NCBI GenBank assembly: GCA_031266075.1
Contig: JAISBS010000104.1
Coordinates: forward strand, 1-38,501
DNA: 38,501 bases
Source of the DNA: Treponema sp.
GTDB taxonomy: Bacteria > Spirochaetota > Spirochaetia > Treponematales > Breznakiellaceae
Direction of reading: 5' to 3'
Below, piece after piece: positions 11,412 through 31,093 of this stretch. Below the pieces are notes generated by a model. It searched no databases. It was not told the DNA's origin and saw only the letters and a program-made list of their open reading frames with translations. Each line of letters opens with the position of its first letter. The first letter of the stretch is position 1. The translations under genes were made by a program, and so were the position numbers.

Positions 11412-11438
11412 TGTCTGCCTCTTTTTTCAAAAGCCTTA

Positions 11439-11460
11439 TCTGAAAACTGAAGTTTTCAGA
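11439..11460. repeat. Palindromic intergenic repeat, copy C
   Basis: A perfect inverted repeat, TCTGAAAACT-GA-AGTTTTCAGA, with 10 bp arms and a 2 nt centre. It lies between the rel stop and the capA start and is followed by GCTTCCCT, resembling GATTCCCT after copy D. As RNA it would form a hairpin without a clear U-tract. Confidence 0.7.
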
Positions 11461-11467
11461 GCTTCCC

Positions 11468-13600
11468 TTAATTGAGAATCTGGACACGGTACATTCCGGG
11501 AACGCCCTGGATGTTTTTGACGACCCGTTTGAGAGTGGCGGCTGATTCAAGCTGCATGGTGAAAAACCCGGTGAGCCGGTTCGGCGCGGTTTCTTCAAGC
11601 CGCCCTTCGATAAGGTGCCCCTGGTGTTTCCGCACGGCCCCCTCGATTTCGGAAAAGAGATCCGCGGAAAGGCGGGCCTCGATTTTGAAATGTTTGACCA
11701 GTGCCGAACCGGCGTTTTCCCACTCGGCCTCGATCTTCCGTTCCTCAAAGTCGGGAATATTGGCCAGGTTGCTGCAGTTTCTCCGGTGGATGATAATGCC
11801 CCGGCCGCGGGACACGTAGCCGATGATGGGATCGCCGGTTACCGGACGGCAGCAGCGGGCAAAACGAATCATCAGGTTTTTTTCGTCCTCCACCCGGACA
11901 TGAAGAATACTGGCGGCGGCATCCTGCTGGATCACCCGCTGAACCGGGGAGAAGTCTTTTGCCGGAGCCGGCGCGGGTTCCGGGGCGGAGGGTTTCTTTT
12001 TGGCCACCACGTTTTTTTCGATGATGATCGAGTCGTCGTTTTGTTCCAGCCAGGAACGGATCTTGCTCCGGGCTCTGGCGGTTTTCACCAGCCGCAGCCA
12101 GTTCAGGTGGGGATGGGCGGATGGGCTGGTGAGAATTTCCACCACCTGGGTGTTCCGCAGTTCGGAACTCAGGGGAATAATGGAACCATCGGCTTTGGCC
12201 CCCACGCAATGTTCCCCAACCGCCGAATGGATGCTGTAGGCGAAATCAATGGGGGTCGCCCCGGCGGGAAGCTCTATCACCTTTCCCTGGGGGGTGAAGA
12301 CATAAATCGAATCGCCCAGCAGTTCCCGCTTGATGTCTTCGAGAAAAGAACCGGAGCCCGGCGGCGCTTCCGTTTCGTTTCCGCTTTTCCAGTCCCGCAG
12401 ACGGTTGACAATGGAAATATCCACGGGCCGCACCAGGTCTTTGGCCGCCCCCTGTTTGTAGAGCCAGTGGCTGGCGATTCCGTTCTCGGCGATGTGGTGC
12501 ATCTCCCTGGTGCGGATCTGGATTTCCAGCATCCGCCCCCCGGAGGGCGCCAGGCTTTCGCCGGAAGACTGAAGCTGCCTGCCGCCGGATTCGCCCGCCG
12601 CTTCATCGTCCGGGCCGGAAGACATTACCGTAGTGTGGAGGCTCTGGTAGCCGTTGGATTTGGGCATGGCGATATAATCCTTAAAACGGCCCTCCAGCGG
12701 CTTCCAGAGCCGGTGAACCAGCCCCAGCAGGGTATAACAGTTTTCGATGCTGTCGCAGAGGATTCTGATGCCAAAAAGATCGTAGACATCCCCGGCGTTT
12801 TTGTTCCGCTTTCGCATCTTCTGGTAAATCGAATAAAAATGTTTGGCCCGGCTGTTTACTTCGATGGTGATCCCCGCAGCGGCGGCCTCCCGCCGGATTT
12901 CCTCCTGGGCCCGGCTGAGAAATTCCTGCCGTTCTCCCCGTTTTTCGGCGACGATTTTTTTTATCTGTTGGTAGGTCTCCCGGTTCAGGTATTTGAGAGA
13001 CAGATCTTCCAGTTCGTCCTTGATCCAGGAGATGCCCAGCCGGTCCGCCAGGGGCGCGTAAATATCAAGACATTCCTGAGCGGCGGGCTTCTGCTCCTCA
13101 ACGGGAACGGAATCCAGGGACCGCAGGACGCAGAGCTTTTCCGCCAGTTTGATAAAAATTACCCGAATGTCCTGGGCCATGGCGAAAAGCATCTTCCTGA
13201 TATTTTCCGCCTCCCGGATCGTTTTGTTTTTTGCCTGAATGTCGGCGATTTTTGCGGCCCCTTCGGCCAGAAGCGCGGTTCGGGGGCCGAATTGCTCCGC
13301 GATCAGGCCGGGCTCCAGGCTTTTGGCTGTCGCCCCGCAGTTCAGAATCAGGGCGGCGATGAGGGTGTCGGAGTCAAGGTTCAGGCTGGTCAGGATGCCG
13401 GTGATTTCCAGGCTCCGGCGGAGGCGGGCGGCGTCCTGACCGGCGCTTTTTTCGCCGGGACTGCCGGGACTGCCGGAGCCGCCGGGGGTTTCAGCGGGCG
13501 GAGGACCCGGCTCCCCGTACAGGGCGCGCAGGATCCGCGCCTGATCCCGCGCTTCGTAGATCGCTATTTTTTTCTTAAACGCGGAAAGCCCCGCTTCCAT
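11468..13600 (-). CDS. rel: RelA/SpoT-family (p)ppGpp synthetase with degenerate hydrolase domain
   Basis: A 710-residue long RSH protein. The synthetase domain is intact (YDLFGIRILCD, GRFKDYIAMPKSNGYQSLHT, ENGIASHWLYKQG). It is followed by a TGS domain (SIYVFTPQGKVIELPAGAT), a Cys-containing region (FARCCRPVTGDP) and a C-terminal ACT-like domain. The N-terminal HD hydrolase domain keeps its fold (AENIRKMLFAMAQDIRVIFIK) but all four expected metal ligands appear changed: the first His to Arg62, the HD pair to Asn87-Cys88 (LILNCGAT), and the later Asp to Glu154 (KLAEKL). This predicts a synthetase-only enzyme like E. coli RelA. The frame opens with a TTG at 13612, but ATG 13600 has GGAGG 5 nt upstream and is preferred. 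It overlaps the 3' end of prmC by 26 bp. Confidence 0.9.
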   Translation of the reverse strand: MEAGLSAFKKKIAIYEARDQARILRALYGEPGPPPAETPGGSGSPGSPGEKSAGQDAARLRRSLEITGILTSLNLDSDTLIAALILNCGATAKSLEPGLIAEQFGPRTALLAEGAAKIADIQAKNKTIREAENIRKMLFAMAQDIRVIFIKLAEKLCVLRSLDSVPVEEQKPAAQECLDIYAPLADRLGISWIKDELEDLSLKYLNRETYQQIKKIVAEKRGERQEFLSRAQEEIRREAAAAGITIEVNSRAKHFYSIYQKMRKRNKNAGDVYDLFGIRILCDSIENCYTLLGLVHRLWKPLEGRFKDYIAMPKSNGYQSLHTTVMSSGPDDEAAGESGGRQLQSSGESLAPSGGRMLEIQIRTREMHHIAENGIASHWLYKQGAAKDLVRPVDISIVNRLRDWKSGNETEAPPGSGSFLEDIKRELLGDSIYVFTPQGKVIELPAGATPIDFAYSIHSAVGEHCVGAKADGSIIPLSSELRNTQVVEILTSPSAHPHLNWLRLVKTARARSKIRSWLEQNDDSIIIEKNVVAKKKPSAPEPAPAPAKDFSPVQRVIQQDAAASILHVRVEDEKNLMIRFARCCRPVTGDPIIGYVSRGRGIIIHRRNCSNLANIPDFEERKIEAEWENAGSALVKHFKIEARLSADLFSEIEGAVRKHQGHLIEGRLEETAPNRLTGFFTMQLESAATLKRVVKNIQGVPGMYRVQILN

Positions 13601-18174: not shown

Positions 18175-19095
18175 TTAGCTAACGACTTCCAGGAAGCTGG
18201 GAATTACTTCCCCGGAGAAATAGAACAGGCCCTTGCCGAGCTGATCCGCATCCCACACCCGCTGGGGGTTGTCCGGGTAGGCGGTATAGCCCGCGCAGTA
18301 GGTTTCGATCCGGTTGCCCGAGGGCTCCCAGAAGTAGATCGAAAGGCCGCGGGTTATGGCGTGCCGGGTGGGACCAATGTCCAGTTTCAGCTTGTTGATG
18401 GCGATATGATCCGCCGCATTCAGCACGTCTTCCCAGGTCTGGAGGTAGAAACCCACATGGTGGAGCTTTCCGGGCTTGGGATATTCCACGAAGGCCAGGT
18501 CGTGCGGCTTGTTGGAACTGGTGATCCAGGCCGCCAGCCGTTTGCCGTCGGGGGTGTTGCAGACCTCGGGCACATACATATCGAACACTTCCTTGCAATA
18601 GCGTTCCGCTTCGGCGATGCCCGGCCCGAAGAGAAGGAAGTGGTCAAGCCGGGTGGCCCTCATGCCCCGGGGCGGCTCGGTCCAGATGTCGGGATTCTTG
18701 ATCTGGGGGGTCTTTTTGGCCAGTTCCACATCGTAGTAAATCTGGAACTGGTGGCCCGTGCAGATAGTGTAGACATACCGTTTGCCAAAACCGGGCTGAT
18801 CGTCGCTGGCTTCGCTTACCTTGTAGCCGAATTTTTCAGTCTTCTGTTTCAGATCTTCCAGTTTTTCCGGGCTGTCAACCTTGAAGGCAACAAAATCAAG
18901 ACCCGCCTCGTTGGTTTTTCGGAGTACGACGCTGTGGTGATCAAATTCGTCATACGCTTTGAGCATGACCCGCCCATCGTTGGTGCGGCCCACCTCATCC
19001 AGACCAAGGATGTTTTTGTAAAAGTCAAGTGTTTTGTCTAAATCCAGCACCCGCAGCTGGATAAGACCCGGGCGAAGTGTACCATGAAATCCCAT
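18175..19095 (-). CDS. xylE: Catechol 2,3-dioxygenase (extradiol, XylE/DmpB type)
   Basis: A 306-residue two-domain vicinal-oxygen-chelate dioxygenase. It cleaves catechol next to the hydroxyls with O2 to give 2-hydroxymuconic semialdehyde. The Fe(II) ligands are all present: H152 (RLDHF), H213 (KLHHVGF) and E264 (NRIETYC). The XylE second-shell residues His199, His246 and Tyr255 have counterparts at H198, H245 and Y254, each exactly one position lower, so the fold is collinear with the Pseudomonas enzyme. GGAGGAGAATT precedes the ATG. It is last in a six-gene minus-strand operon, directly after its likely repair ferredoxin (gap 29 bp). An O2-requiring enzyme is remarkable in what seems to be a fermentative spirochaete. 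Confidence 0.95.
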   Translation of the reverse strand: MGFHGTLRPGLIQLRVLDLDKTLDFYKNILGLDEVGRTNDGRVMLKAYDEFDHHSVVLRKTNEAGLDFVAFKVDSPEKLEDLKQKTEKFGYKVSEASDDQPGFGKRYVYTICTGHQFQIYYDVELAKKTPQIKNPDIWTEPPRGMRATRLDHFLLFGPGIAEAERYCKEVFDMYVPEVCNTPDGKRLAAWITSSNKPHDLAFVEYPKPGKLHHVGFYLQTWEDVLNAADHIAINKLKLDIGPTRHAITRGLSIYFWEPSGNRIETYCAGYTAYPDNPQRVWDADQLGKGLFYFSGEVIPSFLEVVS

Positions 19096-19124
19096 AATTC
19101 TCCTCCATCATCAAAAAATATTTG

Positions 19125-19409
19125 TTACACCCGGGCGATAATCATATCGCTCCGGGGTTGAACACAACACAACAGGGCTATGCCCTCCTCCAGATCCGTT
19201 TCGCTTACATGGGCCCGGCTCATGGGCCGGAACAGGTCCCAGTCGCCGGACACGATCCGCATCCGGCAGACCCCGCAGCCCCCGTTACAGCAGCCGTAGT
19301 CCAGCGGCCCCCGGCGGGACCGGATCATCGCCGCCAGAACCGCCTGATCCCCGGCGCAGGGAAAGCTTTCCCCCGTATCCCGCACCGTAATCCGGTAGTG
19401 CTGCTCCAT
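19125..19409 (-). CDS. xylT: XylT-type [2Fe-2S] ferredoxin
   Basis: A 94-residue plant-type ferredoxin. The cluster cysteines fit C40-x4-C45-x2-C48 (GCCNGGCGVC), plus C81 or C82 (LLCCVQP). Extra cysteines (C41, and the second of C81/C82) lie beside the ligands. In aromatic degraders XylT/DmpQ re-reduces the active-site iron of catechol 2,3-dioxygenase after oxidative inactivation. Position immediately upstream of the dioxygenase supports that role. The ATG has GGGAGG 6 nt upstream. No dedicated ferredoxin reductase is visible in the window. Confidence 0.88.
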   Translation of the reverse strand: MEQHYRITVRDTGESFPCAGDQAVLAAMIRSRRGPLDYGCCNGGCGVCRMRIVSGDWDLFRPMSRAHVSETDLEEGIALLCCVQPRSDMIIARV

Positions 19410-19430
19410 GCCGGCCCTCCCGCCGCGGCC

Positions 19431-20438
19431 CTAGGCCTTCTGCTTGAGCTGGTACGCCACATCGACGATCATGTCTTCCTGACCGCCCACCATGCGCCGC
19501 TTCCCCAGTTCCACCAGAATGTCCCGGGGGGAAAGGCCGAATTTTTCCGCGGCCCGGCGGGTGTGGAGCAGGAAACTGGAATAGACCCCCGCGTAGCCCA
19601 GCATGAGGGAATCGGTTCTGATGGCCTGGGGCCGGTGCATCATGGGCTCCACCACATTCTCCGCCAGATCCATGAGGGCGTAGGTGTCTATGCCGGTGTT
19701 ATAGCCCAGCCGCTGGAGTACCGCGCAGAACACCTCGGTCTGGGTATTCCCCGAACCGGCCCCCAGGCCCCGGCAGGTGGCGTCAACATAGGAAGCCCCC
19801 GCCTCCACCGCGGCCAGGGAATTGGCCACCGCCAGCCCCAAATTGTTGTGGGCGTGAAAACCTGCCGGCAGTTTGGAGGCCGCCTTTAGGGCGCTGATCC
19901 GGGCCGTTACATCAGCGGGGGTCATATAGCCTGAGGAATCCGCCAGATTAATGTAATCCGCCCCGGCGTCCTCAAAAATTTTCGCCTGCTCCACGATTTT
20001 TTCCGGGCTGGCCATGTGGCTCATCATCAGAAAGCCAACGGTGAACATACCGTTCTGTTTGGCCCACTGGATATGCTGGATGGCAATATCCGCCTCGGTA
20101 ACATGGGTGGCGACCCGCACCGCGTTGGCCCCCCGGGCTTTGGCCTCTTTCAGGTCCTCAATAGTGCCGATGCCCGGCAGGAGGAGAACCCCCAGCTTCG
20201 CCTTTTTAACCACCTTTCCCGCGGCCTCGATCAGATCAAGCTCCGGGCAGCCGGAAAAGCCGTAATTGATGGAAGAACCGGCAATGCCGTCTCCGTGGCT
20301 GATCTCGATAAGCTCTACTCCCGCCTTGTCCAGCCCCCCGGCAATGGCAACCGCCTGTTCCACGGTAAAGCTGTGGCTTACCGCATGGCTGCCGTCCCGA
20401 AGCGTCGTATCTACAATATGTATCTTGTCTTCCCGCAT
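19431..20438 (-). CDS. dmpG: 4-hydroxy-2-oxovalerate aldolase
   Basis: A 335-residue DmpG/MhpE-type aldolase that splits 4-hydroxy-2-oxovalerate into pyruvate and acetaldehyde. The N-terminal barrel shows VDTTLRDGSHAVSHSF, ISHGDG, NLADSSGYMTP and the metal motif GFHAHNNLGLA. The C-terminal helical communication domain begins around CRGLGAGSGNTQTEV and has TDSLMLGYAGVYSSF. The frame is open to 20567, but ATG 20438 has GGGAGG upstream and matches family N-termini. One nucleotide separates it from the dehydrogenase stop (TAAGATG), consistent with the two subunits forming the usual channelling complex. Confidence 0.95.
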   Translation of the reverse strand: MREDKIHIVDTTLRDGSHAVSHSFTVEQAVAIAGGLDKAGVELIEISHGDGIAGSSINYGFSGCPELDLIEAAGKVVKKAKLGVLLLPGIGTIEDLKEAKARGANAVRVATHVTEADIAIQHIQWAKQNGMFTVGFLMMSHMASPEKIVEQAKIFEDAGADYINLADSSGYMTPADVTARISALKAASKLPAGFHAHNNLGLAVANSLAAVEAGASYVDATCRGLGAGSGNTQTEVFCAVLQRLGYNTGIDTYALMDLAENVVEPMMHRPQAIRTDSLMLGYAGVYSSFLLHTRRAAEKFGLSPRDILVELGKRRMVGGQEDMIVDVAYQLKQKA

Positions 20439-20439
20439 C

Positions 20440-21312
20440 TTAGTTCCCTCCCGAAGAGAGCATTTTTGCCGCCAGCCTGTCCGCCACCGCCACCGCGGCC
20501 TGATTGATAATGTCAAGATTTCCCGCGTAGGAGGGCAGGAAATCCCCGGCCCCTTCGACCTCGACAATCACCGTAACTTTGTTGCCGTCGATCACCGGCG
20601 GAACCCGCAGACGGTAACCGGGGACATAACCCTGAACCTCCCGGATAATATCGTTCACCGATTCAACGATCTTTTTTTCGTCCGGCTTCTTCACCAGGGC
20701 GTAGACCGTGTTGGTCATCATCAGGGGCGGTTCCGCGGGGTTGAGGACGATAATCGCCTTGCCGCGATCCGCGCCGCCCACTACGCGGAGGGCCCTGGCG
20801 GTGGTTTCGGTAAATTCGTCAATGTTGGCCCGGGTGCCGGGGCCGGCGCTCTTGCTGGATATACAGGAAACGATCTCGCCGTATTCCACATCCGCCGCCC
20901 GGTTGATGGCGTACATGATGGGCACCGTAGCCTGGCCCCCACAGGTAACCATGTTGAAATCCACTTCGTCGGTGAGCTTGTCCAGATTCACGCAGGGAAC
21001 CACATAGGGCCCCACCGCTGCGGGGGTCATGTCGATGGCGATTTTTCCCGCCGCCTTGAGGATCGGGGAATTGTGCAGGTGGGCCTTGGCGCTGGTGGCG
21101 TCAAAGACGATCCGCACGTCCGGGTCTTCCGCCACAGCATCCACCCCCCGGGTGGAGGTTTTGAAACCCAGCCCCGCGGCCCGCTTGATCCCCTCGGACT
21201 CCACAATCCCCGCCATCATGTGCATCTGGAGATTCTTGCTCTTCATCACCTTATACATCAGGTCGCTGCCGATATTTCCCGGCCCGATAATGCCTACTTT
21301 TACCTTCTCCAT
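20440..21312 (-). CDS. dmpF: Acetaldehyde dehydrogenase (acylating)
   Basis: A 290-residue DmpF/MhpF-type enzyme converting acetaldehyde, NAD+ and CoA to acetyl-CoA. The Rossmann motif is IIGPGNIG (residues 8-15). The catalytic cysteine is C124 in [11 protein letters not shown], and downstream [16 protein letters not shown] is typical. Partnership with the adjoining aldolase is the rule in this family and lets toxic acetaldehyde pass directly between active sites. The start has GGCGG about 6 nt upstream. An 83 bp gap to the hydratase gene holds a hairpin. Confidence 0.95.
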
Positions 21313-21346
21313 AATAGCCGCCTTTTTTGTCAGGCATTAAGGAAGC

Positions 21347-21378
21347 TGTCCGGACAAGTTTTTCAAACTTTTCGGACA
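21347..21378 (-). repeat. Hairpin inside the meta-cleavage operon
   Basis: Nested arms TGTCCG/CGGACA and AAGTTT/AAACTT form an imperfect hairpin in the only sizeable gap (83 bp) of the operon, between the hydratase and dehydrogenase genes. It has no following U-tract. It could stabilise or process the transcript, or be a remnant of the palindromic repeats. Confidence 0.45.
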
Positions 21379-21395
21379 GATCCGCCTGAGCGTTA

Positions 21396-22184
21396 TTAAA
21401 CAAACTGAGCTTCCACCATTCCAAAGGAAGAAAATTCCGCCCGGAAGGCGTCGCCTTTTTTCGCCAGGGGTGCTGCGGAAAAAGCCCCCGAAAGGATTAC
21501 TTCCCCAGCCTTGAGCGTTACGCCATAGGACCAGAGCCGGTTGGCAAGCCATGCCACCGACACGCAGGGGTCTCCCAGCACGGCGGCCCCGGTGCCTTCG
21601 CCCGCAAGTTCGCCGTTTTTGTATAGCTTCATGGACACCGAGGGGAGATCAACCTCGTTCAATGCAAGGCGCTTTGATCCCAGCACATAGCGTCCCGAAG
21701 ACGCATTGTCCGACACGGTGTCCACAAGCTTTATCTTCCAGTCCGCCACCCGGCTGTCCACAATCTCGAAGGCCGCCACGACATAATCGGTGGCCGCCCG
21801 GACATCGTCCCGGCTGACTTTGCCCCCCGCCAGATCCGCCTTGAGGATAAAGGCGATTTCTCCCTCGATCTTAGGCTGGAGCAGGGCGTCCGTGTTCAGT
21901 CTGCCGTCTTTGCAGTCCATGGCGGCAAAGAGGTGGCCGTAATCCGGCTCGCTGACCCCAAACTGCTTCTGAATCCCCTCGGAGGTGAGGCCGATTTTTT
22001 TCCCGGAAATGACATGGCCCATCTTCAACACCCGCTCCACATTGGCAAGCTGGATATGATAGGCATCGTCAATATTGAGGGAGGGGTCCTGATCCGTCAG
22101 GGGCGGAATGGCCTGCCGGTTCCGCTCCGCGTTAAAAAGCTGTTCCGCATACGCGGCAATCCGTTTTTCGTCCATACGCCCCAT
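21396..22184 (-). CDS. dmpE: 2-oxopent-4-enoate hydratase (2-hydroxypentadienoate hydratase)
   Basis: A 262-residue member of the FAH-related hydratase/decarboxylase family. It adds water to 2-hydroxypenta-2,4-dienoate to give 4-hydroxy-2-oxovalerate. Visible signatures are GKKIGLTS, the metal-site segment PKIEGEIAFIL, AAFEIVDSR and VSDNASSGRYVLG. The hydratase (DmpE/MhpD) and decarboxylase (DmpH) are related; its placement between hydrolase and aldolase/dehydrogenase genes and the lack of a DmpI tautomerase favour hydratase. The first ATG (22184) lies 5 nt after the hydrolase stop, close to AGGACGG. An ATG three codons later is possible. Confidence 0.9.
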   Translation of the reverse strand: MGRMDEKRIAAYAEQLFNAERNRQAIPPLTDQDPSLNIDDAYHIQLANVERVLKMGHVISGKKIGLTSEGIQKQFGVSEPDYGHLFAAMDCKDGRLNTDALLQPKIEGEIAFILKADLAGGKVSRDDVRAATDYVVAAFEIVDSRVADWKIKLVDTVSDNASSGRYVLGSKRLALNEVDLPSVSMKLYKNGELAGEGTGAAVLGDPCVSVAWLANRLWSYGVTLKAGEVILSGAFSAAPLAKKGDAFRAEFSSFGMVEAQFV

Positions 22185-22189
22185 CCGTC

Positions 22190-23014
22190 CTAGCGTTTGA
22201 AGAACGGGCGGATCAGATCCGCAAATTCCTGGGTATGTTCAATCTGGGTCCAGTGGCCGCATTTGCCGAACACATGGAGCTGGGCATTGTTGATAAGCTG
22301 GAGAAGCCGGTATGAATTCTCCAGCGGGATAACCCGGTCTTCCCGGCCATGGACAATAAGGGTCTCGTGGGGGATATTGCGGATATACTGCTGATTCCCC
22401 GCCATAGACTCCACCCCTTTCTGCCGGGGCTCCGGGAACAGGGCGTGGAAGCTCTCCTGAAAACCCGGCTGGATGCTGGACTCGTAGCGGGTCTTAATCA
22501 GGTCTTTGGTGGCAAAACCGTGGTCATAGGTGAAAATTTCCAGCAGTTCCTCCATATTTTCCAGGGAAGGCTCGTAGCCCCAGACCTGATCCAGCCCGTA
22601 GGTGATGGGGAAACTGACTCCCATGGCTCCCATGAGGACCAGCTTGTTTATCCGCTGGGGGTATTTGATCGCCAGGGACAGGGCCAGCGCGCCGCCAAAG
22701 GAGTTGCCCACCAGGTTGGTTTTTTCGATTTTCAGCGCGTCCAAAAGGTCGATGGTCTGCTCCACCCAGCCGTTCATGGTCTCTTTTCTGCCGGGAACCC
22801 GCTCGGTAAAGCCAAAACCGGACATATCCGGGGCGATTACACGAAAATCGTCCTTGATAAGGGGGAAAAGCCGTCCCCAGTTTGCCCAGGCGGTTACGCC
22901 CGGCCCGGATCCGTGGAGCAGCGTTACGGGAAAACCCTGGCCCAGGTCGTGATAATTGGTCTTGAAGGCCCCGGTTTGAATACTGTTGGCAATTTCAGGT
23001 CTCTGTTCAGCCAT
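22190..23014 (-). CDS. dmpD: 2-hydroxymuconic semialdehyde hydrolase
   Basis: A 274-residue alpha/beta hydrolase of the meta-cleavage-product group (DmpD/XylF/TodF). The oxyanion segment is LLHGSGPGVTAWANW, the nucleophile elbow is GNSFGG (S105), and the remaining triad residues are D226 (HGREDRVIP) and H254 (GHWTQIEH). It hydrolyses the C-C bond of the ring-fission product, releasing 2-hydroxypenta-2,4-dienoate and a carboxylic acid: formate from catechol, acetate from 3-methylcatechol. AGGAG lies 6-7 nt before the ATG. It is the first gene of the operon, and the promoter at 23061-23089 lies just upstream. The dehydrogenase branch (XylG/H/I) is absent, so this hydrolytic route is the only one encoded here. 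Confidence 0.93.
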   Translation of the reverse strand: MAEQRPEIANSIQTGAFKTNYHDLGQGFPVTLLHGSGPGVTAWANWGRLFPLIKDDFRVIAPDMSGFGFTERVPGRKETMNGWVEQTIDLLDALKIEKTNLVGNSFGGALALSLAIKYPQRINKLVLMGAMGVSFPITYGLDQVWGYEPSLENMEELLEIFTYDHGFATKDLIKTRYESSIQPGFQESFHALFPEPRQKGVESMAGNQQYIRNIPHETLIVHGREDRVIPLENSYRLLQLINNAQLHVFGKCGHWTQIEHTQEFADLIRPFFKR

Positions 23015-23233: not shown

Positions 23234-23380
23234 CTATATTAATTTGATACAAATTATAGGATATATGCTTGACCGGCGCTCTGCCGCAGGATCACGCCCG
23301 TTTCAGTCCCTTTGACGGGAATGGCCCGGCGCTTCCGTTGCGGGGCAGGTAGAATTGAGAGAACCAGGAGTGTGTACCGT

Positions 23381-24166
23381 ATGGAATTGAGGAAAAAGGC
23401 CAGGGGAAAAACCCGGCCCTTTTGGGTTTTGCCGGCCCAGCTGGCCCTTCTTGTACTGATTCTGGGAGGAGTGGAAATCGCAGTTTCCCGGAATTATATC
23501 AACCGCATTTTTCTTGCGTCTCCGACGCAGATAGTAGATGAATTGCTTTATATCCTGGGCGAAAATATCCTCTGGGAACATTTGAGCATTTCCCTGCAGG
23601 AATTTTTTGTGGGATACCTGCTTGCGGCAGCTGCCGGATGCGCCATCGGCGTCCTGTTTGTCGTATTCCCCCGGCTTGAAATGTTTTTGAATCCCTATGT
23701 GGCCGCGGTTATGGCGGTGCCCAAAATCGCCATTATGCCCCTCCTGCTTATCTGGTTCGGCATTGGTTTTACCAGCAAAATCGTACTGGTTTTTCTGTTT
23801 TGCGTCTTTACTATCCTCTTTAATACCATCACGGGCGCCAAGGAAACGCCGGCAGGATTTCTCAAGGTTGCCGGAATTTTCAAGGCCACCAGGACCCAGA
23901 CGGTTTTCAAAGTGCTGCTGCCCGCCGCGCTGCCCGGTATTTTTGCGGGGCTGCGGATTACCGCGGGTACGGCCCTGACGGGGGTGTTGTTCGCCGAAAT
24001 GCAGGTCTCCAAAAAAGGACTGGGCTACCTTTTGGTAGAGTCCCAGGCGGTGCTGAACACTCCCCGGATTTTTTTAGTGATCATTTTAATTACTATTTTG
24101 GCGGTACTTTTTGTCGGTATTGTCAATATGAGCGAACGGCTTATCTGCCACCGCTGGAAAGCATAG
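23381..24166 (+). CDS. ABC transporter permease (SsuC/TauC/ThiX-like)
   Basis: A 261-residue inner-membrane permease with about six hydrophobic helices. The cytoplasmic loop that contacts the ATPase reads GIFKATRTQTVFKVLLPAAL, the EAA-loop pattern ending in I/V-x-LP. It belongs to the sulfonate/nitrate/taurine/pyrimidine-precursor importer group. The frame is open from a TTG at 23312; ATG 23381 with AGGAG 10 nt upstream is chosen because the earlier part is Arg-rich and unlike family N-termini. ATG 23321 is an alternative. It is the first gene of the rightward operon, divergent from the ring-cleavage genes. Confidence 0.88.
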   Translation: MELRKKARGKTRPFWVLPAQLALLVLILGGVEIAVSRNYINRIFLASPTQIVDELLYILGENILWEHLSISLQEFFVGYLLAAAAGCAIGVLFVVFPRLEMFLNPYVAAVMAVPKIAIMPLLLIWFGIGFTSKIVLVFLFCVFTILFNTITGAKETPAGFLKVAGIFKATRTQTVFKVLLPAALPGIFAGLRITAGTALTGVLFAEMQVSKKGLGYLLVESQAVLNTPRIFLVIILITILAVLFVGIVNMSERLICHRWKA

Positions 24167-24219: not shown

Positions 24220-24245
24220 GAATACACATTGCAAGGAGGATGAAC

Positions 24246-25355
24246 ATGAATGTTTCATCATTGTTTTTTCGGGCCATAAAGCGCATTGCTGTTGGCGTAT
24301 CCCTGGCCGCCGCGCTTGCCGCCTGCTCAAAGGCCGCTCCCGGAGCCGCCGCGCCGGCGGCCCCGTCTACGGTTGTTTCGTCTCCCAATATGTCCATTGC
24401 CGGCGGCATTCCGCCCTGGGAGGGCTACAATGGGCCGCGCACCAAAATCCGCGATGTCTTTGCCCTGGGGATGACCGGGATCGGCAACCAGTTTGCGATT
24501 GCCAAAGGCTGGTATAAGGACGCCGGCTTCGATCTGGAACACACCGAAGCCAGCGCAATTACCTCCAATGCGGTGGAGGTCTTTGCCGCCGGGGAGGGGG
24601 ATATTGCCGATGGCGACCCCGGCACGTATATCCCCGCCATTGTAAACGGGGTGCCGATCAAAATCGTTGGCAATATGTGGCGTAACCGGGGGGCGTTCTG
24701 GATCATCGCGCAGCCGGGAATCAAAACATTTGAGGATCTCCGGGGGAAAAAAATTGGCACCGGATCGCCCACCGGGGGAATGCGTACCACGACCATGGAA
24801 ACCCTCCGCCTCAACGGTATCGACCCGGAGAAGGATGTGGAACTGGTGGCCGCCGGGTTCTACCAGACCGCCTATGCGGCGCTGATCAGCGGGGCGGTGG
24901 ATGCGACCATTATTCACCAGCCCTTCGCAACCATGGCGCAGCGGGAAGGGAACGGCAATATTCTGGCAAAAACCTGGGAGTACCTGCCGGCATATCATAC
25001 CGGGGTTATCGTTATTTCACAGAAACTGATCGACGAGCAGCCCGATGTGGTAGAACGCCTGCTGCAGGTTTACTATTACGGGAATGAATACGCGCGAACC
25101 CATCTGGATGAATTTTTCCCCTGGGCGGCGAAATACCTCAACCTTCCCGAAGATGTGGCCCGGGAAGCGATAACTGCCGAGATTGAACTTTGGGAAAACG
25201 ATCCCATTGTAGATATTGGCCGCCTCCAGGTAACCCAGAATATGCTTGCCCAATACAAGATGCAGCGCAGCGCTTTGCCGGTGGATAATGTAGTGGATAA
25301 CACCTTTGCGGAACGGGTCGCGCAGACCCTCAAGCTGGGAAAATACCGGGAGTAA
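24246..25355 (+). CDS. ABC transporter substrate-binding lipoprotein (NMT1/SsuA-like)
   Basis: A 369-residue periplasmic-binding-protein type II lipoprotein. The signal sequence ends in LAAALAAC (Cys27), followed by an Ala/Pro-rich tether. The mature domain has features of the NMT1/SsuA/TauA group: FAIAKGWYKDAGFDLEHTEA, VFAAGEGDIADGDPGTYIPA, IKTFEDLRGKKIGTGSPTGG and ALISGAVDATIIHQP. Such proteins bind sulfonates, nitrate, thiamine precursors or aromatic acids; the ligand cannot be told from sequence. AAGGAGG overlaps an earlier in-frame ATG (24240), so ATG 24246, with 6 nt spacing, is the start. Confidence 0.88.
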   Translation: MNVSSLFFRAIKRIAVGVSLAAALAACSKAAPGAAAPAAPSTVVSSPNMSIAGGIPPWEGYNGPRTKIRDVFALGMTGIGNQFAIAKGWYKDAGFDLEHTEASAITSNAVEVFAAGEGDIADGDPGTYIPAIVNGVPIKIVGNMWRNRGAFWIIAQPGIKTFEDLRGKKIGTGSPTGGMRTTTMETLRLNGIDPEKDVELVAAGFYQTAYAALISGAVDATIIHQPFATMAQREGNGNILAKTWEYLPAYHTGVIVISQKLIDEQPDVVERLLQVYYYGNEYARTHLDEFFPWAAKYLNLPEDVAREAITAEIELWENDPIVDIGRLQVTQNMLAQYKMQRSALPVDNVVDNTFAERVAQTLKLGKYRE

Positions 25356-25360
25356 GCGGA

Positions 25361-26140
25361 ATGCCTTCGATAGAAATCCGTCACATTTCCAAGCGGTATC
25401 CGGTTCTGGATACGGAACAGATCCATGCGCTGGAAGATATTAACCTGACGGTCAGGAACGGGGAATTTGTCTGCATCCTGGGCCCCAGCGGATGCGGGAA
25501 AAGCACCCTGCTGGAAATTGTGGCGGGCCTGCTGCCCCCTTCCGATGGGGAAATACTGCTGGACAATCAGGTTCAGGCCGGCACAAACCCGGCTATCGGG
25601 GTGGTGTTTCAGGACGCGGCCCTTTTCCCCTGGCGGAATATCCGCGGCAATGTGGGGTTTGGCCTGGAACTGATGGGACGCAGCCGGGCGGAACGGAAGA
25701 AAAAGGCGGACGCCGCCATTGAGATGGTGGGGCTTGCGGGTATGGGCGACAAATATCCCCACCAGCTTTCCGGCGGTATGCGCCAGCGGGCCGGCCTTGC
25801 CCGGACTCTGGCGGCGGATCCGCAGGTCATTTTGATGGATGAACCCTTTAGCGCGGTGGATCATTTGACCCGGCTCAGCCTGCAGGAGGAAATAATCCGC
25901 ATCTGGCAGAAACAGGGGAAAACCATATTTTTTGTAACCCACGATGTGGGAGAGGCGGTTTATCTGGCAACCAGGGTGATCCTGTTAAGCTCCCGGCCCG
26001 GGAAGATTCAGCAAATTTTTGAAGTGCCCTTTGCCCACCCCCGGGACCGGAACAGTCAGGGCCTCCTCACGATTGTTGAGCGGATTTATATGGGGATAAA
26101 CAATCCCCTGGCATCCGGCGATATCGAATACAACCTGTAA
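25361..26140 (+). CDS. ABC transporter ATP-binding protein (SsuB/TauB-like)
   Basis: A 259-residue ATPase that powers the importer. Walker A is GPSGCGKST (41-49), the Q-loop is VFQDAALFPW, the signature is LSGGMRQRAGLARTL, Walker B with D-loop is VILMDEPFSAVD, and the H-loop is VTHDVGEA. The stop of the binding-protein gene lies 5 bp upstream and contributes to a GGGAG ribosome site. All catalytic motifs are intact. Confidence 0.93.
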   Translation: MPSIEIRHISKRYPVLDTEQIHALEDINLTVRNGEFVCILGPSGCGKSTLLEIVAGLLPPSDGEILLDNQVQAGTNPAIGVVFQDAALFPWRNIRGNVGFGLELMGRSRAERKKKADAAIEMVGLAGMGDKYPHQLSGGMRQRAGLARTLAADPQVILMDEPFSAVDHLTRLSLQEEIIRIWQKQGKTIFFVTHDVGEAVYLATRVILLSSRPGKIQQIFEVPFAHPRDRNSQGLLTIVERIYMGINNPLASGDIEYNL

Positions 26141-26151
26141 AGGAGCGTGTT

Positions 26152-27012
26152 ATGGCGGCAAACGATCAAGATATTCAAAAAATTCTTGCGTCCTTTAATC
26201 TGGCCGATGAAGAATACCTTGCCCTGGATGAAACCGAATTCCGGGCGCGGTTCCGGGAACGGATTCATCATACCCTGGAAATTCAGGTCTACGCTAACGC
26301 ATACCGCGGCGGGAAACCTCTGGGGGACAAGCAGGCGGATACGGTAAAACGGCTTGTTGCCCTTTGGGAAAAACGGGGGCTTTCCCGCGAGCTGCCTGAA
26401 TACGGGTACGCGCAAAAACTGCTGGGCTTTGCCGGCGCCAGGGCCGCGGGGGAACCGGTTGATTTATCTCCCTTTGCGCCCCGGCCTCTTGGCGATACCG
26501 AACGGGAAGCGTTTTTTACTATTGTAAAAGAGCGCCGTTCTGTCCGGGAGTTCACCAGCCGGCGGGTGCCCGATGCATTGATAGACCGGATTCTGGAGGC
26601 GGGTCTTTGGGCGGCCCACTCCTGCAACCTCCAGTCGATCCGTTACCTGGTGGTCCGGGAAGAAGTGAGCCCCGGTCTTTTCCGGGGAAGCGATGTTCCC
26701 GGCGGGCCGGTGCATCTGGTGATTCTCCAGGATGAGCGGGTGTACCGGGCCAATCCCCTGAACCCGGTCCGGAACCGCCTGCTTGACGCCGGGGCGGCGG
26801 CGCAGAATATTGCCCTGGCAGCCCACGCCATCGGCCTGGAAGGGGTGTGGCTTACTTTTAATGACGAGATCGCCGGGCGCCTTCGCAAACACTACCGGAT
26901 TGACGGCCACATTAGCCTGGTTACCTATGTAGATGTCGGTTATGGCGATCAGACCCCCTGCCCCATCCCCCGGCTCCCGGTGGATGAAGCAGTGCTGGGC
27001 CGGGACCGGTAA
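26152..27012 (+). CDS. Nitroreductase-family protein with N-terminal extension
   Basis: A 286-residue protein. Residues 115-280 form a nitroreductase-type FMN fold. FMN-contact motifs include ERRSVREF (about 127-134), HSCNLQSIRYLVV in place of the common SxxNxQPW, and the C-terminal AHAIGLEGVWLTF. The first ~110 residues are helical and lack the cysteines of the ferredoxin-fused nitroreductases; I do not recognise them. The family reduces nitro groups, quinones, enones or flavins with NAD(P)H, so a reductive step on the imported substrate is plausible. AGGAG lies 6 nt before the ATG, 11 bp after the ATPase stop. Confidence 0.8.
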   Translation: MAANDQDIQKILASFNLADEEYLALDETEFRARFRERIHHTLEIQVYANAYRGGKPLGDKQADTVKRLVALWEKRGLSRELPEYGYAQKLLGFAGARAAGEPVDLSPFAPRPLGDTEREAFFTIVKERRSVREFTSRRVPDALIDRILEAGLWAAHSCNLQSIRYLVVREEVSPGLFRGSDVPGGPVHLVILQDERVYRANPLNPVRNRLLDAGAAAQNIALAAHAIGLEGVWLTFNDEIAGRLRKHYRIDGHISLVTYVDVGYGDQTPCPIPRLPVDEAVLGRDR

Positions 27013-27040: not shown

Positions 27041-28855
27041 ATGGGACATATCAGCAGGGTAATTGAAAGCGATGTACTGGTGATCGGCGGCGCCGGAGCG
27101 GCGGCGATGAGCGCGGTACGGGCAAGCCGGGAAGGAGTCTCCGTGGTGGCGGTCTCCAAGGGCAAGGCGGGAAAAAGCGGCAACACTATCATGATAGGGG
27201 GCGGCTTTGGCGTTGACGGCGAAGGGGCCAGGGAAATATGCGGCGAAGCGGCGGCCAACCCGGAATATACCCGGGAAAAATCTTTCAAAAAACTTGCGGC
27301 CAGCGGCTTCTACCTTGGGGATCAGCGGCTGCAAAAAATTTATGTGGATGCCGGGCCGCCGGCGGTAAAGGAATGTCTTGACTGGGCAAAAGCGGCGGGA
27401 CAGTTGTTTTGCTTTAACCCTGCCGGATGCAGCTGGCTTACCTCCGGGGCCGCCTTTGGCAGGACCGTGGCCGGGGGGCTGGCGGCGCAGCCGGGCATCA
27501 GTGTCCATGAAGATGTGTTTATTGCCGAGCTTTTAAGCAGAGACGGCCAGGTGTGCGGCGCTTTGGGGATCGATATTTATTCCGGCGAATTTGTTCAATA
27601 CAATGCCGGGGCGGTTATCCTGGCCACCGGGGGGTATCAGCCTTTTTCGATAAAAAATTCCCACAGCGATATGACCGGGGACGGCATTGCCCTGGCCCTG
27701 CGAGCGGGATGCCGGATTGTAGATATGGAATTCCTCCTGTTTATCGGCACTATTCTGGAACCGCTCTGGGCCAGGGGTTCCCTGATTCCGTTTTTGTTTA
27801 CCATCCCCGGATTTTTCCCCCTGCGGGCCCGGATGACGGATCTTGACGGTGTTGAATTGTCATTCCCGCCGGATCCCCGGTACCGGGTGGGGCCCACCAG
27901 CAGCAAGGTCAATAAACTGCTGATGGCCGAATTTTATGGCCGGGGGATCTTTGAAAAAATCGATACCCATGGCAATGCCTTTTATTATGATTATTCCGCC
28001 TATCGTGATGAAGAAATCCGGGATGCCTTTCGGGCCTTTGCGGGCCGGGAAAAAACCTGGCACCGGGAGGGCTTTTATAACGGCATCGATCTTTCCCGGC
28101 TGGCGGAAGATATTATCCGGAACGGGAAACGGATGAAAGCCGCCTTTGGTAACGAGTACAGCATGGGCGGCGTGGTGGTAGAACCGGATTTTTCCACCGG
28201 TGTTCCCGGCCTCTACGCGGCGGGGGAGGTAACCGGCGGCGCCTTTGGAGCCTTCCGCTCGGGAGACGGACTTACGGAGATGCTGGCCCACGGCTATATC
28301 GCCGGGGTTTCCGCGGCGGCTTTCGCAAAATCGGCGAAGCATCATCCGGTTCCCGCCGATGCGGAAGAAAAGGCCGGGGAACTATTGGCCCCCTTTTCCC
28401 GCCCCAATGGATTGAGCCCCGCCGGGGCCCGGGCCGAACTTGAACGGATCTGCGACGAAGGCTTTGATTTTTTCCGGGAGGGAAAGCGGCTGGAAAAGGC
28501 ATACGGGGAAATTACGGAACTGCGGAAAAATCTTGACGGATTGTCTATCCCCGAAAAAGACCGGCGTTATAACCTGGAATGGCTGAATGCGGTGATGGCC
28601 CGCAATCTGGCCCTCTGCGCCGAAAGCGGCATTTACGGGGCCCTGAACCGGAAGGAAAGCCGGGGTACTCATCTGCGGGCCGATTACCCGGAGCTGAACA
28701 ACCGGGACTTTCTGTTCAGTTTCAACGCCGCCCTGAAAGACGGCAGGCTGGTCTATTCCCGGGAGCGGCCCCGGGCCTGGTATCTGCCCCTTTGTGAATC
28801 CAACTATCCGTCAACAGCCGAGTACCTGGCGGATCAGGTTTTGCGGGAGGTGTGA
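27041..28855 (+). CDS. FAD-dependent fumarate-reductase/SdhA-like flavoprotein
   Basis: A 604-residue flavoprotein. The FAD motif is VLVIGGAGAAAMSA near the N-terminus. The succinate-dehydrogenase-like architecture shows in GVPGLYAAGEVTGGAFG, SGDGLTEMLAHGYIAG and the C-terminal RKESRGTHLRADYP. Two departures from true fumarate reductases are visible. The covalent-FAD histidine of RSHT is Asn48 (KSGNT), so FAD is probably non-covalent. The substrate histidine of HYTMGG is replaced (EYSMGG). It may therefore reduce an enoate other than fumarate, or oxidise another acid. AAGGAG precedes the ATG. Its stop is followed at once by the [2Fe-2S] gene, which probably delivers electrons to it. Confidence 0.85.
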   Translation: MGHISRVIESDVLVIGGAGAAAMSAVRASREGVSVVAVSKGKAGKSGNTIMIGGGFGVDGEGAREICGEAAANPEYTREKSFKKLAASGFYLGDQRLQKIYVDAGPPAVKECLDWAKAAGQLFCFNPAGCSWLTSGAAFGRTVAGGLAAQPGISVHEDVFIAELLSRDGQVCGALGIDIYSGEFVQYNAGAVILATGGYQPFSIKNSHSDMTGDGIALALRAGCRIVDMEFLLFIGTILEPLWARGSLIPFLFTIPGFFPLRARMTDLDGVELSFPPDPRYRVGPTSSKVNKLLMAEFYGRGIFEKIDTHGNAFYYDYSAYRDEEIRDAFRAFAGREKTWHREGFYNGIDLSRLAEDIIRNGKRMKAAFGNEYSMGGVVVEPDFSTGVPGLYAAGEVTGGAFGAFRSGDGLTEMLAHGYIAGVSAAAFAKSAKHHPVPADAEEKAGELLAPFSRPNGLSPAGARAELERICDEGFDFFREGKRLEKAYGEITELRKNLDGLSIPEKDRRYNLEWLNAVMARNLALCAESGIYGALNRKESRGTHLRADYPELNNRDFLFSFNAALKDGRLVYSRERPRAWYLPLCESNYPSTAEYLADQVLREV

Positions 28856-28857
28856 TT

Positions 28858-29148
28858 ATGCAGGTAGCTGTTAAACGCGGCGGAGCGGTGTCCCGTTATG
28901 AGGTGCCGGATTCCGATCAGGCCCGGACTCTGATGCAGATTCTGGATTATATTTATCTGAACCTGGATCACAGCCTGGCCTACTACCGGCACAGCGCCTG
29001 CGGTCAGGGGATCTGCGGACGCTGCGTCGTCCGGGCAAACGGGAAGAATGTACTGGCCTGTGTAGAAAAACTGGAACCCGGAGCCGAGCCCCTGCTTCTT
29101 GAGCCTGCGGGGAAAAATGTGGTCAGGGATTTGGTAACCAGCAATTAG
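28858..29148 (+). CDS. Stand-alone [2Fe-2S] protein like the SdhB/FrdB N-terminal domain
   Basis: A 96-residue protein with C48-x4-C53-x2-C56-x11-C68 (ACGQGICGRC and NVLAC), exactly the spacing of the [2Fe-2S] domain of SdhB/FrdB. The second SdhB domain, which holds the 4Fe-4S and 3Fe-4S clusters, is missing, and no further cysteines follow. The start is ATG 28858, 7 nt after GGAGG; a GTG at 28852 overlaps the flavoprotein stop and is less likely. I infer a minimal electron-transfer subunit for the preceding flavoprotein, without a membrane anchor or quinone site. Confidence 0.85.
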   Translation: MQVAVKRGGAVSRYEVPDSDQARTLMQILDYIYLNLDHSLAYYRHSACGQGICGRCVVRANGKNVLACVEKLEPGAEPLLLEPAGKNVVRDLVTSN

Positions 29149-29153
29149 TGTCC

Positions 29154-29196
29154 GTCCACAAAGTGCGAACTTTCGGTTCGAGGTTACTTTGTGGAC
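29154..29196. repeat. Large cruciform-like inverted repeat
   Basis: Perfect 11 bp arms GTCCACAAAGT (29154-29164) and ACTTTGTGGAC (29186-29196) enclose a second hairpin, CGAAC-tttcg-GTTCG (29166-29180). The outer arms extend a few bases with one mismatch. It sits in the 78 bp gap between the [2Fe-2S] and M20 genes, with no U-tract. Confidence 0.6.
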
Positions 29197-29226
29197 AGAC
29201 TCTGATTAAAATGCAAGGAAAAAATT

Positions 29227-30570
29227 ATGGATCATATTGAAGAACGGATCATCCGGCGGATAGCGGAAAACCGGGAACGGATTATTCAGTTTGCCCGGGA
29301 CATATACCGTCATGCGGAACTGGGGTTTAAGGAAACCCGGACCGCCGCACAATTTGAAGGGCTGCTGCGCGGACTGAAACTGCCGCGCATTGATACGGGG
29401 CTGGCGCTTACCGGGGTCAAGGGTTCCCTCAAGCCGCAGGAGGCGGCGGGTCCCCGGCTGGCCCTTATCGGCGAACTGGACGCCCTGCGGATACCCGCCC
29501 ATCCCTATGCCAACCCCGAAACCCAGGGAGCCCATTGCTGCGGGCACCATGCCCAGCTTGCCGGGATCGCGGGCGCCGCCATTGCCCTGGCGGATCCCGA
29601 AACGGCGGCGGCGCTGGACGGCAACGTGGTGTTTTTTGCGGTTCCCGCGGAGGAGTACGGGGAAATCGCCTTCAAAAACCAACTTCGGGAAGCGGGGAAA
29701 ATCCGGTACGGCGGCGGTAAATGCGAACTCATCCGCACCGGCGCTTTTGACGACATAGACCTCAGCATCTGCCACCACAGCAGTAACGAGGGAATATCGG
29801 TGGGGAACGGCAGCAGCAACGGTTTTGTGTCCAAGGTAATCCGCATTTTGGGCCGGTCGGCCCACGCGGCGGCGGCGCCCCACCTGGGGATCAACGCCCT
29901 GAACGCTGCGGCTCTGGGCCATGCGGCTTTACAGTTCCACCGGGAAACTTTCCGGGATGAGGATTCGATCCGCATACACCCCATCATCACCAAAGGCGGC
30001 GACCTGGTAAATGTGATCCCCGACGAAGTAGTGCTGGAAGCCCTGGTTCGGGGGAAAACCAAGGAGGCCATTCTGGACGCGAATTTCAAAACCGACCGTT
30101 CCTACCGGGCCGGAGCCGAAGCCCTGGGCGCGGGGTATGAAATTGAAACCATGCCGGGTTATCTCCCCATGATCCCCACACCGGCCCATCCGGCGCTGGT
30201 GGAAGCGGCCCGGCTGGCGGCTCCCGGAGCCGAAGTGGTTTTGACAGACCCCCAAAAACACGGCAGCGCCTCTACCGATGTGGGAGACCTGCAGCATATC
30301 CAGCCGGTTTTGAATTTTAATACCGGGGGTACCAGAGGGGCCTATCATTCCCCCATGTTTGAAATCGTGGATGAAGAAGAAGCGTATATTACCACCGCCA
30401 AAATTTTTGCCCTGGGAGCTTACCGGCTCCTGCGGGACAAGGCCGCGGCGGCCAGGGAAATCATCGAAGCGTATCATCCTGAGTTTACCAGAGACGGGTA
30501 TACCGCCTTTATGGAATCCCTGATAAAAAAAGAGCGGAAGGAGGCGCGGGGGAATGAGCGGGAATCATAA
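29227..30570 (+). CDS. M20D-family amidohydrolase/peptidase
   Basis: A 447-residue zinc-dependent hydrolase of the M20D group (AbgB, hippurate and N-acyl amino acid hydrolases). Motifs: GELDAL (82-87), AHCCGHHAQLAG (Cys105/His107 as likely ligands), PAEEYGE, CHHSSNEG, the dimerisation-domain segment GRSAHAAAAPHLGINAL, and the final histidine in YHSPMFEI. The CGHHAQ version resembles AbgB-type CGHN more than the usual CGHDxH. Likely reaction: cleavage of an amide or carbamoyl bond in a small, probably imported, molecule. AAGGA lies 7 nt before the ATG. The 3' end overlaps the next gene by 17 bp, so the two are coupled. Confidence 0.85.
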   Translation: MDHIEERIIRRIAENRERIIQFARDIYRHAELGFKETRTAAQFEGLLRGLKLPRIDTGLALTGVKGSLKPQEAAGPRLALIGELDALRIPAHPYANPETQGAHCCGHHAQLAGIAGAAIALADPETAAALDGNVVFFAVPAEEYGEIAFKNQLREAGKIRYGGGKCELIRTGAFDDIDLSICHHSSNEGISVGNGSSNGFVSKVIRILGRSAHAAAAPHLGINALNAAALGHAALQFHRETFRDEDSIRIHPIITKGGDLVNVIPDEVVLEALVRGKTKEAILDANFKTDRSYRAGAEALGAGYEIETMPGYLPMIPTPAHPALVEAARLAAPGAEVVLTDPQKHGSASTDVGDLQHIQPVLNFNTGGTRGAYHSPMFEIVDEEEAYITTAKIFALGAYRLLRDKAAAAREIIEAYHPEFTRDGYTAFMESLIKKERKEARGNERES

Positions 30571-31093
30571 AAACGCGGATATCAGCGGGATCAGGCTGGC
30601 GTGCCGCCAGTTTGCCATGCTGTATTTTCAGTTTTGCAGAACCCTGGTGGAATCAAACGGCGAGGCGGCGGCCCTGGAGCTGGTACAAAAAACCATTTTC
30701 CGCCTGGCCCTGGACCGGACCGACCGGATCCGGGCAAAGGCGGACGCGGAAGGGCTGACCCCTACGGCAGAAAACTTTATGCGGGTGAACGACCTGCCCT
30801 TTACCGCCTGGAAGGACTGGGAACCGGATATGGGCGGCCTCCGCTGCCCCTACGCCGAAGCCTGGCGGGAATATTATGCGGAGTACCCCTGGTTCAAACG
30901 CTTTGCGTCCCTGTATTGCGATGTGATCGACACTACCAATATTGAAAATTTTTCCCGGACTACTTCCCACCGGATCACCGCCAACCTTATATGGGGAGAC
31001 CCGGCCTGTGAGCGGGAATATTTTGAAAGCGAAGCGGTCAAACGCGGTGTATTTACCTACGGGAAGCGGGACGAACCGGCGGAGCGGCGCTAA
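30554..31093 (+). CDS. L-2-amino-thiazoline-4-carboxylic acid hydrolase-like protein
   Basis: A 179-residue soluble protein. GLRCPYAEAWREYYAEYPWF, LYCDVIDTTNIENFS and SHRITANLIWGDPACEREYF look like the ATC_hydrolase family. Its founding member opens the thiazoline ring of 2-amino-thiazoline-4-carboxylate. Three cysteines lie in conserved-looking positions. In the known Pseudomonas pathway the next step is an M20-type N-carbamoyl-cysteine hydrolase, and here the overlapping upstream gene is also an M20 enzyme. Assignment is from memory of the family and the true substrate may differ. AAGGAGG lies 9 nt before the ATG. The stop overlaps the convergent transketolase stop by 4 bp. Confidence 0.6.
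   Translation: MSGNHKNADISGIRLACRQFAMLYFQFCRTLVESNGEAAALELVQKTIFRLALDRTDRIRAKADAEGLTPTAENFMRVNDLPFTAWKDWEPDMGGLRCPYAEAWREYYAEYPWFKRFASLYCDVIDTTNIENFSRTTSHRITANLIWGDPACEREYFESEAVKRGVFTYGKRDEPAERR

Follow-up and report, generated by a model that had tools for sequence, protein, structure and literature searches.

The window, by which we mean the whole stretch of 38,501 nucleotides analyzed here, is contig 19 of an assembly that is 70% complete and whose closest relatives include Treponema and Spirochaetaceae MAGs. It carries a tight run of plus-strand genes from an ABC permease gene (23312) to a PF14196 gene (31093); the gaps between them measure about 2 to 78 bases (Table 1). Within this run, a flavoprotein gene is followed by the gene for a short [2Fe-2S] protein. 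An earlier note had read the two as a flavoprotein/[2Fe-2S] module, and both open reading frames were recovered at the same positions and match the corresponding Pfam families. The start of the PF14196 gene overlaps the end of the M20 gene. Upstream of the pair, the nitroreductase-family protein has an N-terminal extension of ∼115 residues (26152-26520) with no Pfam match, as does its counterpart in locus L002, and orthologues of this protein lie near the pair in L002 and L025. A strong hairpin (29150-29200, -26.7 kcal/mol, z -4.1) lies between the [2Fe-2S] and M20 genes; its sequence was sought in the loci of other genomes and was not found. The window gave no Rfam match at all, and so no riboswitch.

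Table 1. Features of the operon and of the two proteins of the pair
Feature	Position	Strand	Basis
ABC permease, SsuC/TauC/SaoP type	23312..24166	+	family models
Substrate-binding protein, NMT1/SsuA type	24240..25355	+	family models
ABC ATPase, TauB/SaoA type	25361..26140	+	family models
Nitroreductase-family FMN protein	26152..27012	+	family models
Flavoprotein, 604 aa, SdhA/FrdA/NadB superfamily	27041..28855	+	ORF, Pfam, closest solved structures
Asn48 codon, covalent-FAD His position	27182..27184	+	alignment with SdhA H45, FrdA H45, NadB S45
Ser288-Lys292 region, where FrdA has catalytic Arg288	27902..27916	+	alignments
Glu372 codon, in place of the HYTMGG substrate His	28154..28156	+	alignment
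Arg406 codon, equivalent to FrdA Arg391, retained substrate-carboxylate Arg	28256..28258	+	alignment
[2Fe-2S] protein, 96 aa, SdhB N-terminal domain only	28858..29148	+	Fer2_3; alignment with FrdB/SdhB and 21 short relatives
Four cluster cysteines of the [2Fe-2S] protein, C-x4-C-x2-C-x11-C	28999..29061	+	alignment
M20 amidohydrolase, N-acyl-amino-acid type	29227..30570	+	TIGR01891 above cut-off
PF14196 family protein (L-2-amino-thiazoline-4-carboxylate hydrolase family)	30554..31093	+	34.3 bits, cut-off 28.1

A divergent minus-strand operon (18175-23014) encodes meta-cleavage enzymes: a catechol 2,3-dioxygenase-like protein, a DmpG-type aldolase, an acetaldehyde dehydrogenase, a 2-oxopent-4-enoate hydratase, and an HsaD/BphD-like hydrolase. 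It represents an oxygen-using ring-cleavage route in a gut spirochaete that is probably anaerobic, and such a route has been discussed earlier for Treponema primitia and termite-gut spirochaetes. This operon was not seen next to the pair at any orthologous locus that was examined, and we regard its proximity as incidental.

The flavoprotein and its short partner

The flavoprotein matches FAD_binding_2 and Succ_DH_flav_C (Pfam; E 2.9e-26 and 1.3e-21), the former with 93 bits against a gathering cut-off of 20.4, and has no apparent signal peptide. Its best solved relative is the SdhA subunit of M. smegmatis Sdh1, both by sequence (7d6v) and by fold (7d6x/7d6v; Foldseek E 5.5e-26 against 7d6x_A). 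The mean pLDDT of the structure model is only 62.7; the fold is clear and the pocket has low confidence, so the residue roles discussed below are based on sequence alignment alone. No NCBIfam equivalog model reached its cut-off with either protein of the pair. The fumarate reductase, succinate dehydrogenase, and L-aspartate oxidase models all fall far short with the flavoprotein, the best at 194.9 against 819 bits, and the second-best match is TfrA (192.3 against 718). A search of the 70% complete assembly for further copies of the flavoprotein gave none.

The partner matches Fer2_3 (Pfam; E 6.7e-17, 61.9 bits, gathering cut-off 27). Its start is most likely ATG 28858 rather than the overlapping GTG 28852, because GGGAGG lies upstream and relatives use the same start. 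All 22 aligned short partners stop at the SdhB domain boundary, shortly past an [RK]D[LV]-type motif (RDLV), whereas SdhB runs on at this motif into a second domain, and the short form is therefore a stable feature of the lineage. A one-off truncation can be set aside, since the 22 proteins share this boundary and the pairing recurs; the term "cut-down" in the earlier note presupposes an evolutionary direction. The cysteine spacing and the end point both agree with the earlier proposal that only the N-terminal domain of SdhB is present. That proposal also held that the 4Fe-4S/3Fe-4S half and the membrane anchors are missing; the partner alignment and the recurrent pairing support such an apparently soluble two-subunit form, and no membrane-anchor-like gene occurs among the operon genes. 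When the window's own 70% complete genome was searched with the dhsB model for a full SdhB, or for its C-terminal half encoded elsewhere, nothing scored above the cut-off; the search returned the [2Fe-2S] gene itself and two weak fragments.

An adjacent Fer2_3 gene accompanies the flavoprotein gene at 27 of 27 loci in Spirochaetota and Bacillota, downstream in 26 and upstream in one. Five related spirochaete genomes contain orthologues with 61-70% identity, and a sixth contains a relative with 30%; the Bacillota members share 55%, 40%, and about 30% identity, and one partial member shares 57%. The pair is rare (7 of 199 relatives and 4 of 393 genomes in a phylum sample), order-level searches near G465 and G592 yielded no additional members, and no virus-borne copies of the pair were found. 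Plasmid relatives share 28-29% identity; two of the three loci examined have no short partner, and at the third (Nocardia) a weak match, perhaps to an ordinary SdhB, lies 228 bases downstream. For both genes pN/pS is 0.20-0.35, indicative of purifying selection, and this, with the 61-70% orthologues and the recurrent adjacency, rules out a chance arrangement or a pseudogene.

Phylogenetic analysis places 12 flavoproteins in one clade (support 100/99), which includes the window clade, L047, L077, L078, and L029. The same group alone has two extra residues ahead of the first cluster cysteine in the partner protein (RHSAC in the window, SHSVC or DHAAC in others), so both proteins share this signal. 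In L003 (10137-11234), where the flavoprotein and [2Fe-2S] genes are intact, the M20 gene is in two pieces and PF14196 is a 46-residue remnant, which looks like decay or an assembly error.

Residues of the substrate site

The flavoprotein was aligned with E. coli FrdA, SdhA, and NadB, in which the roles of the corresponding residues are textbook knowledge (FrdA numbering includes Met1). As the earlier note had claimed, Asn takes the place of the His that binds FAD covalently: Asn48 lies at or beside this column, a one-residue gap leaving the exact column slightly ambiguous. This residue is Asn in the window clade and Ala or Thr in other pair members, and the alignment suggests that the FAD is probably noncovalent. 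The first substrate His (FrdA H233) is also missing from the pair members. The claimed absence of the substrate His from the HYTMGG motif was likewise confirmed; Glu372 replaces it in the motif NEYSMGG and is invariant in the window clade. Members of this clade (NEY[ST]xGG) are additionally without equivalents of Thr245-Glu246 and of the catalytic Arg288. No Arg is present in the region aligned with FrdA Arg288, where the register is ambiguous by at most one helical turn, and the near-invariant or invariant Lys289 and Lys292 of the clade could, from their position in the alignment, stand in for it. Among FrdA H233, T245-E246, R288, H356, and R391, only the R391 equivalent is retained (the R288 column being ambiguous, with Lys nearby), and this Arg is present throughout the pair members aligned.

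The replacement of the dicarboxylate and catalytic residues makes fumarate chemistry unlikely, in keeping with the earlier suggestion of a substrate other than fumarate. More distant relatives (L048-L060) still have the second substrate His and the catalytic Arg, which sets the Glu form apart as a branch of its own that probably acts on a different substrate. If the flavoprotein were simply a sequence-divergent member of a familiar class (soluble fumarate reductase, succinate dehydrogenase, or L-aspartate oxidase), this would account for the overall fold and for the closest solved structures, which are complex II and L-aspartate oxidase. We consider this very improbable, given NCBIfam scores so far below the cut-offs and the replacement of the residues that bind and protonate the dicarboxylate.

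Comparison with individual known systems leads to the same distinction. With complex II (7d6v Sdh1, E. coli FrdABCD), the flavoprotein shares the SdhA fold over its full length and the C-terminal RxESRGxH motif, and homology links the partner to the N-terminal [2Fe-2S] domain of SdhB, whereas the window pair has no covalent-FAD His, no dicarboxylate site, no C-terminal SdhB clusters, and no anchors in its operon. NadB is a soluble enzyme with noncovalent FAD and an amino-acid substrate, and its fold is that of the window flavoprotein, but it works without an iron-sulfur partner and still has the dicarboxylate and catalytic residues, and its model gives the window flavoprotein 111 bits against a cut-off of 452.75. 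The thiol:fumarate reductase of methanogens, TfrA/TfrB, is likewise a soluble two-gene combination of a flavoprotein and an SdhB-type protein; TfrB (46.5 against 385 bits) is long and has further clusters (488-position model), unlike the 96-aa window partner. Judged by these sequence tests, the pair is a member of the SdhA superfamily but is not complex II, NadB, or TfrAB.

The superfamily of SdhA and FrdA contains many enoate-type reductases, and the pair could take electrons from ferredoxin and reduce an enoate or another activated C=C bond, with a monocarboxylate (acrylate, cinnamate, urocanate, or a dehydro-amino acid) as substrate and electrons passing from the [2Fe-2S] protein to FAD. 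The flavoprotein still has one carboxylate Arg, more distant relatives keep both the catalytic Arg and the His, and the host, probably fermentative, could use an electron sink. We nevertheless think such a reductase rather unlikely, as the simultaneous replacement of the catalytic Arg and the HYTMGG His in the window clade would remove the known proton-donor system, and the neighbors (hydrolases and an uptake system) indicate a catabolic setting with no export or respiratory context.

Neighboring genes in relatives

All 10 assessable clade genomes have a PF14196 gene on the contig and strand of the pair and no more than 9 kb away from it, against 0 of 12 outgroup genomes (one further clade contig is cut and was not counted); five outgroup genomes have PF14196 elsewhere. 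The difference gives a Fisher p of 1.5e-6, which ignores shared ancestry and thus overstates the real weight. That weight lies in the retention of the linkage across Spirochaetota and Bacillota while the transporters change. The transporters differ among loci (SsuABC-like, Dpp, MFS, and TAXI-TRAP), so the substrate is not fixed by them. The window PF14196 member is divergent and barely exceeds the cut-off, and several orthologues fall below it. M20 amidohydrolases adjoin the pair in most clade loci.

Homologues of the L-cysteine desulfidase CyuA lie beside the pair in four genomes from two phyla (L080, L046, L077, and L078). The three full-length ones share 35-40% identity with E. coli CyuA, with the cysteines aligned, versus 14-19% with TdcG. 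The window operon itself has no CyuA gene, and a search of the incomplete genome to which the window belongs found none either. It is present in 69 of 199 related genomes, so genome-wide co-occurrence is uninformative and adjacency alone counts. The L046 locus also encodes a pyruvate-type 2-oxoacid:ferredoxin oxidoreductase and an acyl-CoA synthetase. L080, a 99% complete spirochaete genome, offers the clearest locus for experiments; there, at 11082-12983, a CyuA homologue directly precedes a PF14196 protein and an SsuABC-like transporter, and the pair comes after them.

A sister branch from Bacillota (L052-L056) shows a second recurrent setting, in which the pair adjoins an M24 creatinase/prolidase-like gene and, where checked, a gene for a PLP-dependent lyase (PALP). 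Other sister loci have an arginase-family gene (L048) or RidA (L059), and the outgroup locus L060 has, next to the flavoprotein gene, an MmgE/PrpD gene and two hydrolase genes of M20 length. These sister loci favor amino-acid derivatives over enoates as substrates. The M24 and PLP-lyase genes (L052), the arginase family, and RidA would also suit a reading in which the PF14196, M20, and CyuA linkage marks a pathway for a derivative of a non-sulfur amino acid (for example N-acylated or ring-closed, of the serine family), in which the pair would still be an imino- or amino-acid redox enzyme, and the SDH_alpha family spans more than one β-eliminating enzyme. We find this unlikely, because the CyuA homologues resemble CyuA, which acts on cysteine, more closely than TdcG, which acts on serine.

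The MmgE/PrpD gene of L060 has a parallel in the yxe operon, whose YxeQ is an MmgE/PrpD protein. The nearest solved relative of the window M20 protein is YxeP, which deacetylates N-acetylcysteine in the S-(2-succino)cysteine route (PMC9706529, PMC12757645), where the YxeK step requires oxygen (PMC9706529). An oxygen-independent cleavage of S-alkylated cysteines such as S-(2-succino)cysteine might thus be envisaged, with the succinyl arm dehydrogenated by the SdhA-like enzyme to give a keto acid and N-acyl-cysteine, which the M20 enzyme would deacylate. Such a cleavage is improbable in our judgment: the dicarboxylate site, which a succinyl substrate should preserve, has been lost, the operon shows no acetyltransferase gene, and the likeness to YxeP is only at the family level (E 2.1e-18).

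A candidate redox step for cysteine-like substrates

The missing catalytic Arg, the Glu in place of His, and the PF14196, M20, and CyuA neighbors point to an amino- or imino-acid-like substrate. They lead away from the enoates put forward in the earlier note (urocanate, cinnamate, and muconate), for which we found no support. Its inflow of electrons from a ferredoxin-like donor fared no better; with an amino- or imino-acid-like substrate, oxidation is at least as likely as reduction. That the pair is a soluble, non-fumarate enzyme with an amino-acid-like substrate seems to us fairly probable. Our best explanation as a whole, held tentatively and with somewhat less than even confidence, is a soluble pair that oxidizes a cysteine-like imino or amino acid in N-acylated or ring-closed form and feeds a PF14196/M20/CyuA route. 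A cysteine-derivative route in particular is possible, if doubtful.

From the observed gene content, pairing, residue changes, and conserved linkage, we infer a cofactor binding mode, a docking site, a direction, and a substrate as follows. The pair would be a soluble cytosolic two-subunit oxidoreductase in which the SdhA-fold flavoprotein holds FAD noncovalently, and the 96-aa protein would dock at the site of the SdhB N-terminal domain and shuttle single electrons between FAD and a soluble carrier. In the pocket, Arg406 would bind one carboxylate and Glu372 would suit an ammonium or imino nitrogen, and a dicarboxylate would no longer fit. An imino- or amino-acid-like cysteine derivative, for example thiazolidine-4-carboxylate (from cysteine and an aldehyde), could be oxidized to the thiazoline; the PF14196 protein would open the ring to N-acyl-cysteine, the M20 amidohydrolase would strip the acyl group, and CyuA in relatives would convert cysteine to pyruvate, H2S, and ammonia. 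The most specific form, an oxygen-independent imino-acid dehydrogenase of SdhA fold for cysteine-derived S,N-rings (thiazolidine carboxylates) that hands its electrons to a free-standing [2Fe-2S] protein of SdhB type and feeds anaerobic ring opening, deacylation, and desulfuration, is quite unlikely to be right in every part.

PF14196 is named after the enzyme that opens 2-aminothiazoline-4-carboxylate en route to cysteine. In Pseudomonas, ATC is converted to carbamoyl-cysteine and, by carbamoyl-cysteine amidohydrolase, to cysteine, which is then desulfhydrated (PMC10821248). Thiazolidine-4-carboxylate is converted to N-formylcysteine in bacteria and mitochondria (PMC9814826), and this source cites E. 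coli proline dehydrogenase for the oxidation. This literature on ring opening and thiazolidine oxidation makes a path of dehydrogenase, hydrolase, deacylase, and desulfidase coherent. The Pseudomonas ATC pathway likewise joins PF14196 to an amidohydrolase, with a cysteine-splitting enzyme next, as in some loci of relatives, whereas the published route (PMC10821248) includes neither a flavoprotein nor a [2Fe-2S] protein, and the window M20 protein is assigned at the level of the M20 amidohydrolase family. Proline dehydrogenase performs, according to PMC9814826 and the references in it, the FAD-dependent oxidation of the cysteine-aldehyde ring to N-formylcysteine, a reaction comparable to the one proposed here, but its fold is unrelated to that of the window flavoprotein, and no proline dehydrogenase was found in the operon. 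The M20 and PF14196 families both contain members of unknown substrate, which counts against our explanation. Riboflavin degradation (preprint PMC12934955) was considered and is unrelated to the pair. In the literature covered, mostly outside subscription journals, we found no description of an FAD and short [2Fe-2S] pair of this kind.

These findings suggest that the pair probably serves a redox step in a little-known anaerobic pathway for amino acids rather than acting as a fumarate reductase. Generic fumarate reductase and succinate dehydrogenase models match such genes and can give a false hint of fumarate respiration in anaerobes that lack complex II. Together, the conserved pairing, the altered pocket, and the tight linkage with PF14196, M20, and CyuA genes offer a cheaply testable entry to an undescribed anaerobic amino-acid pathway, probably for a cysteine derivative, in gut spirochaetes and Bacillota.
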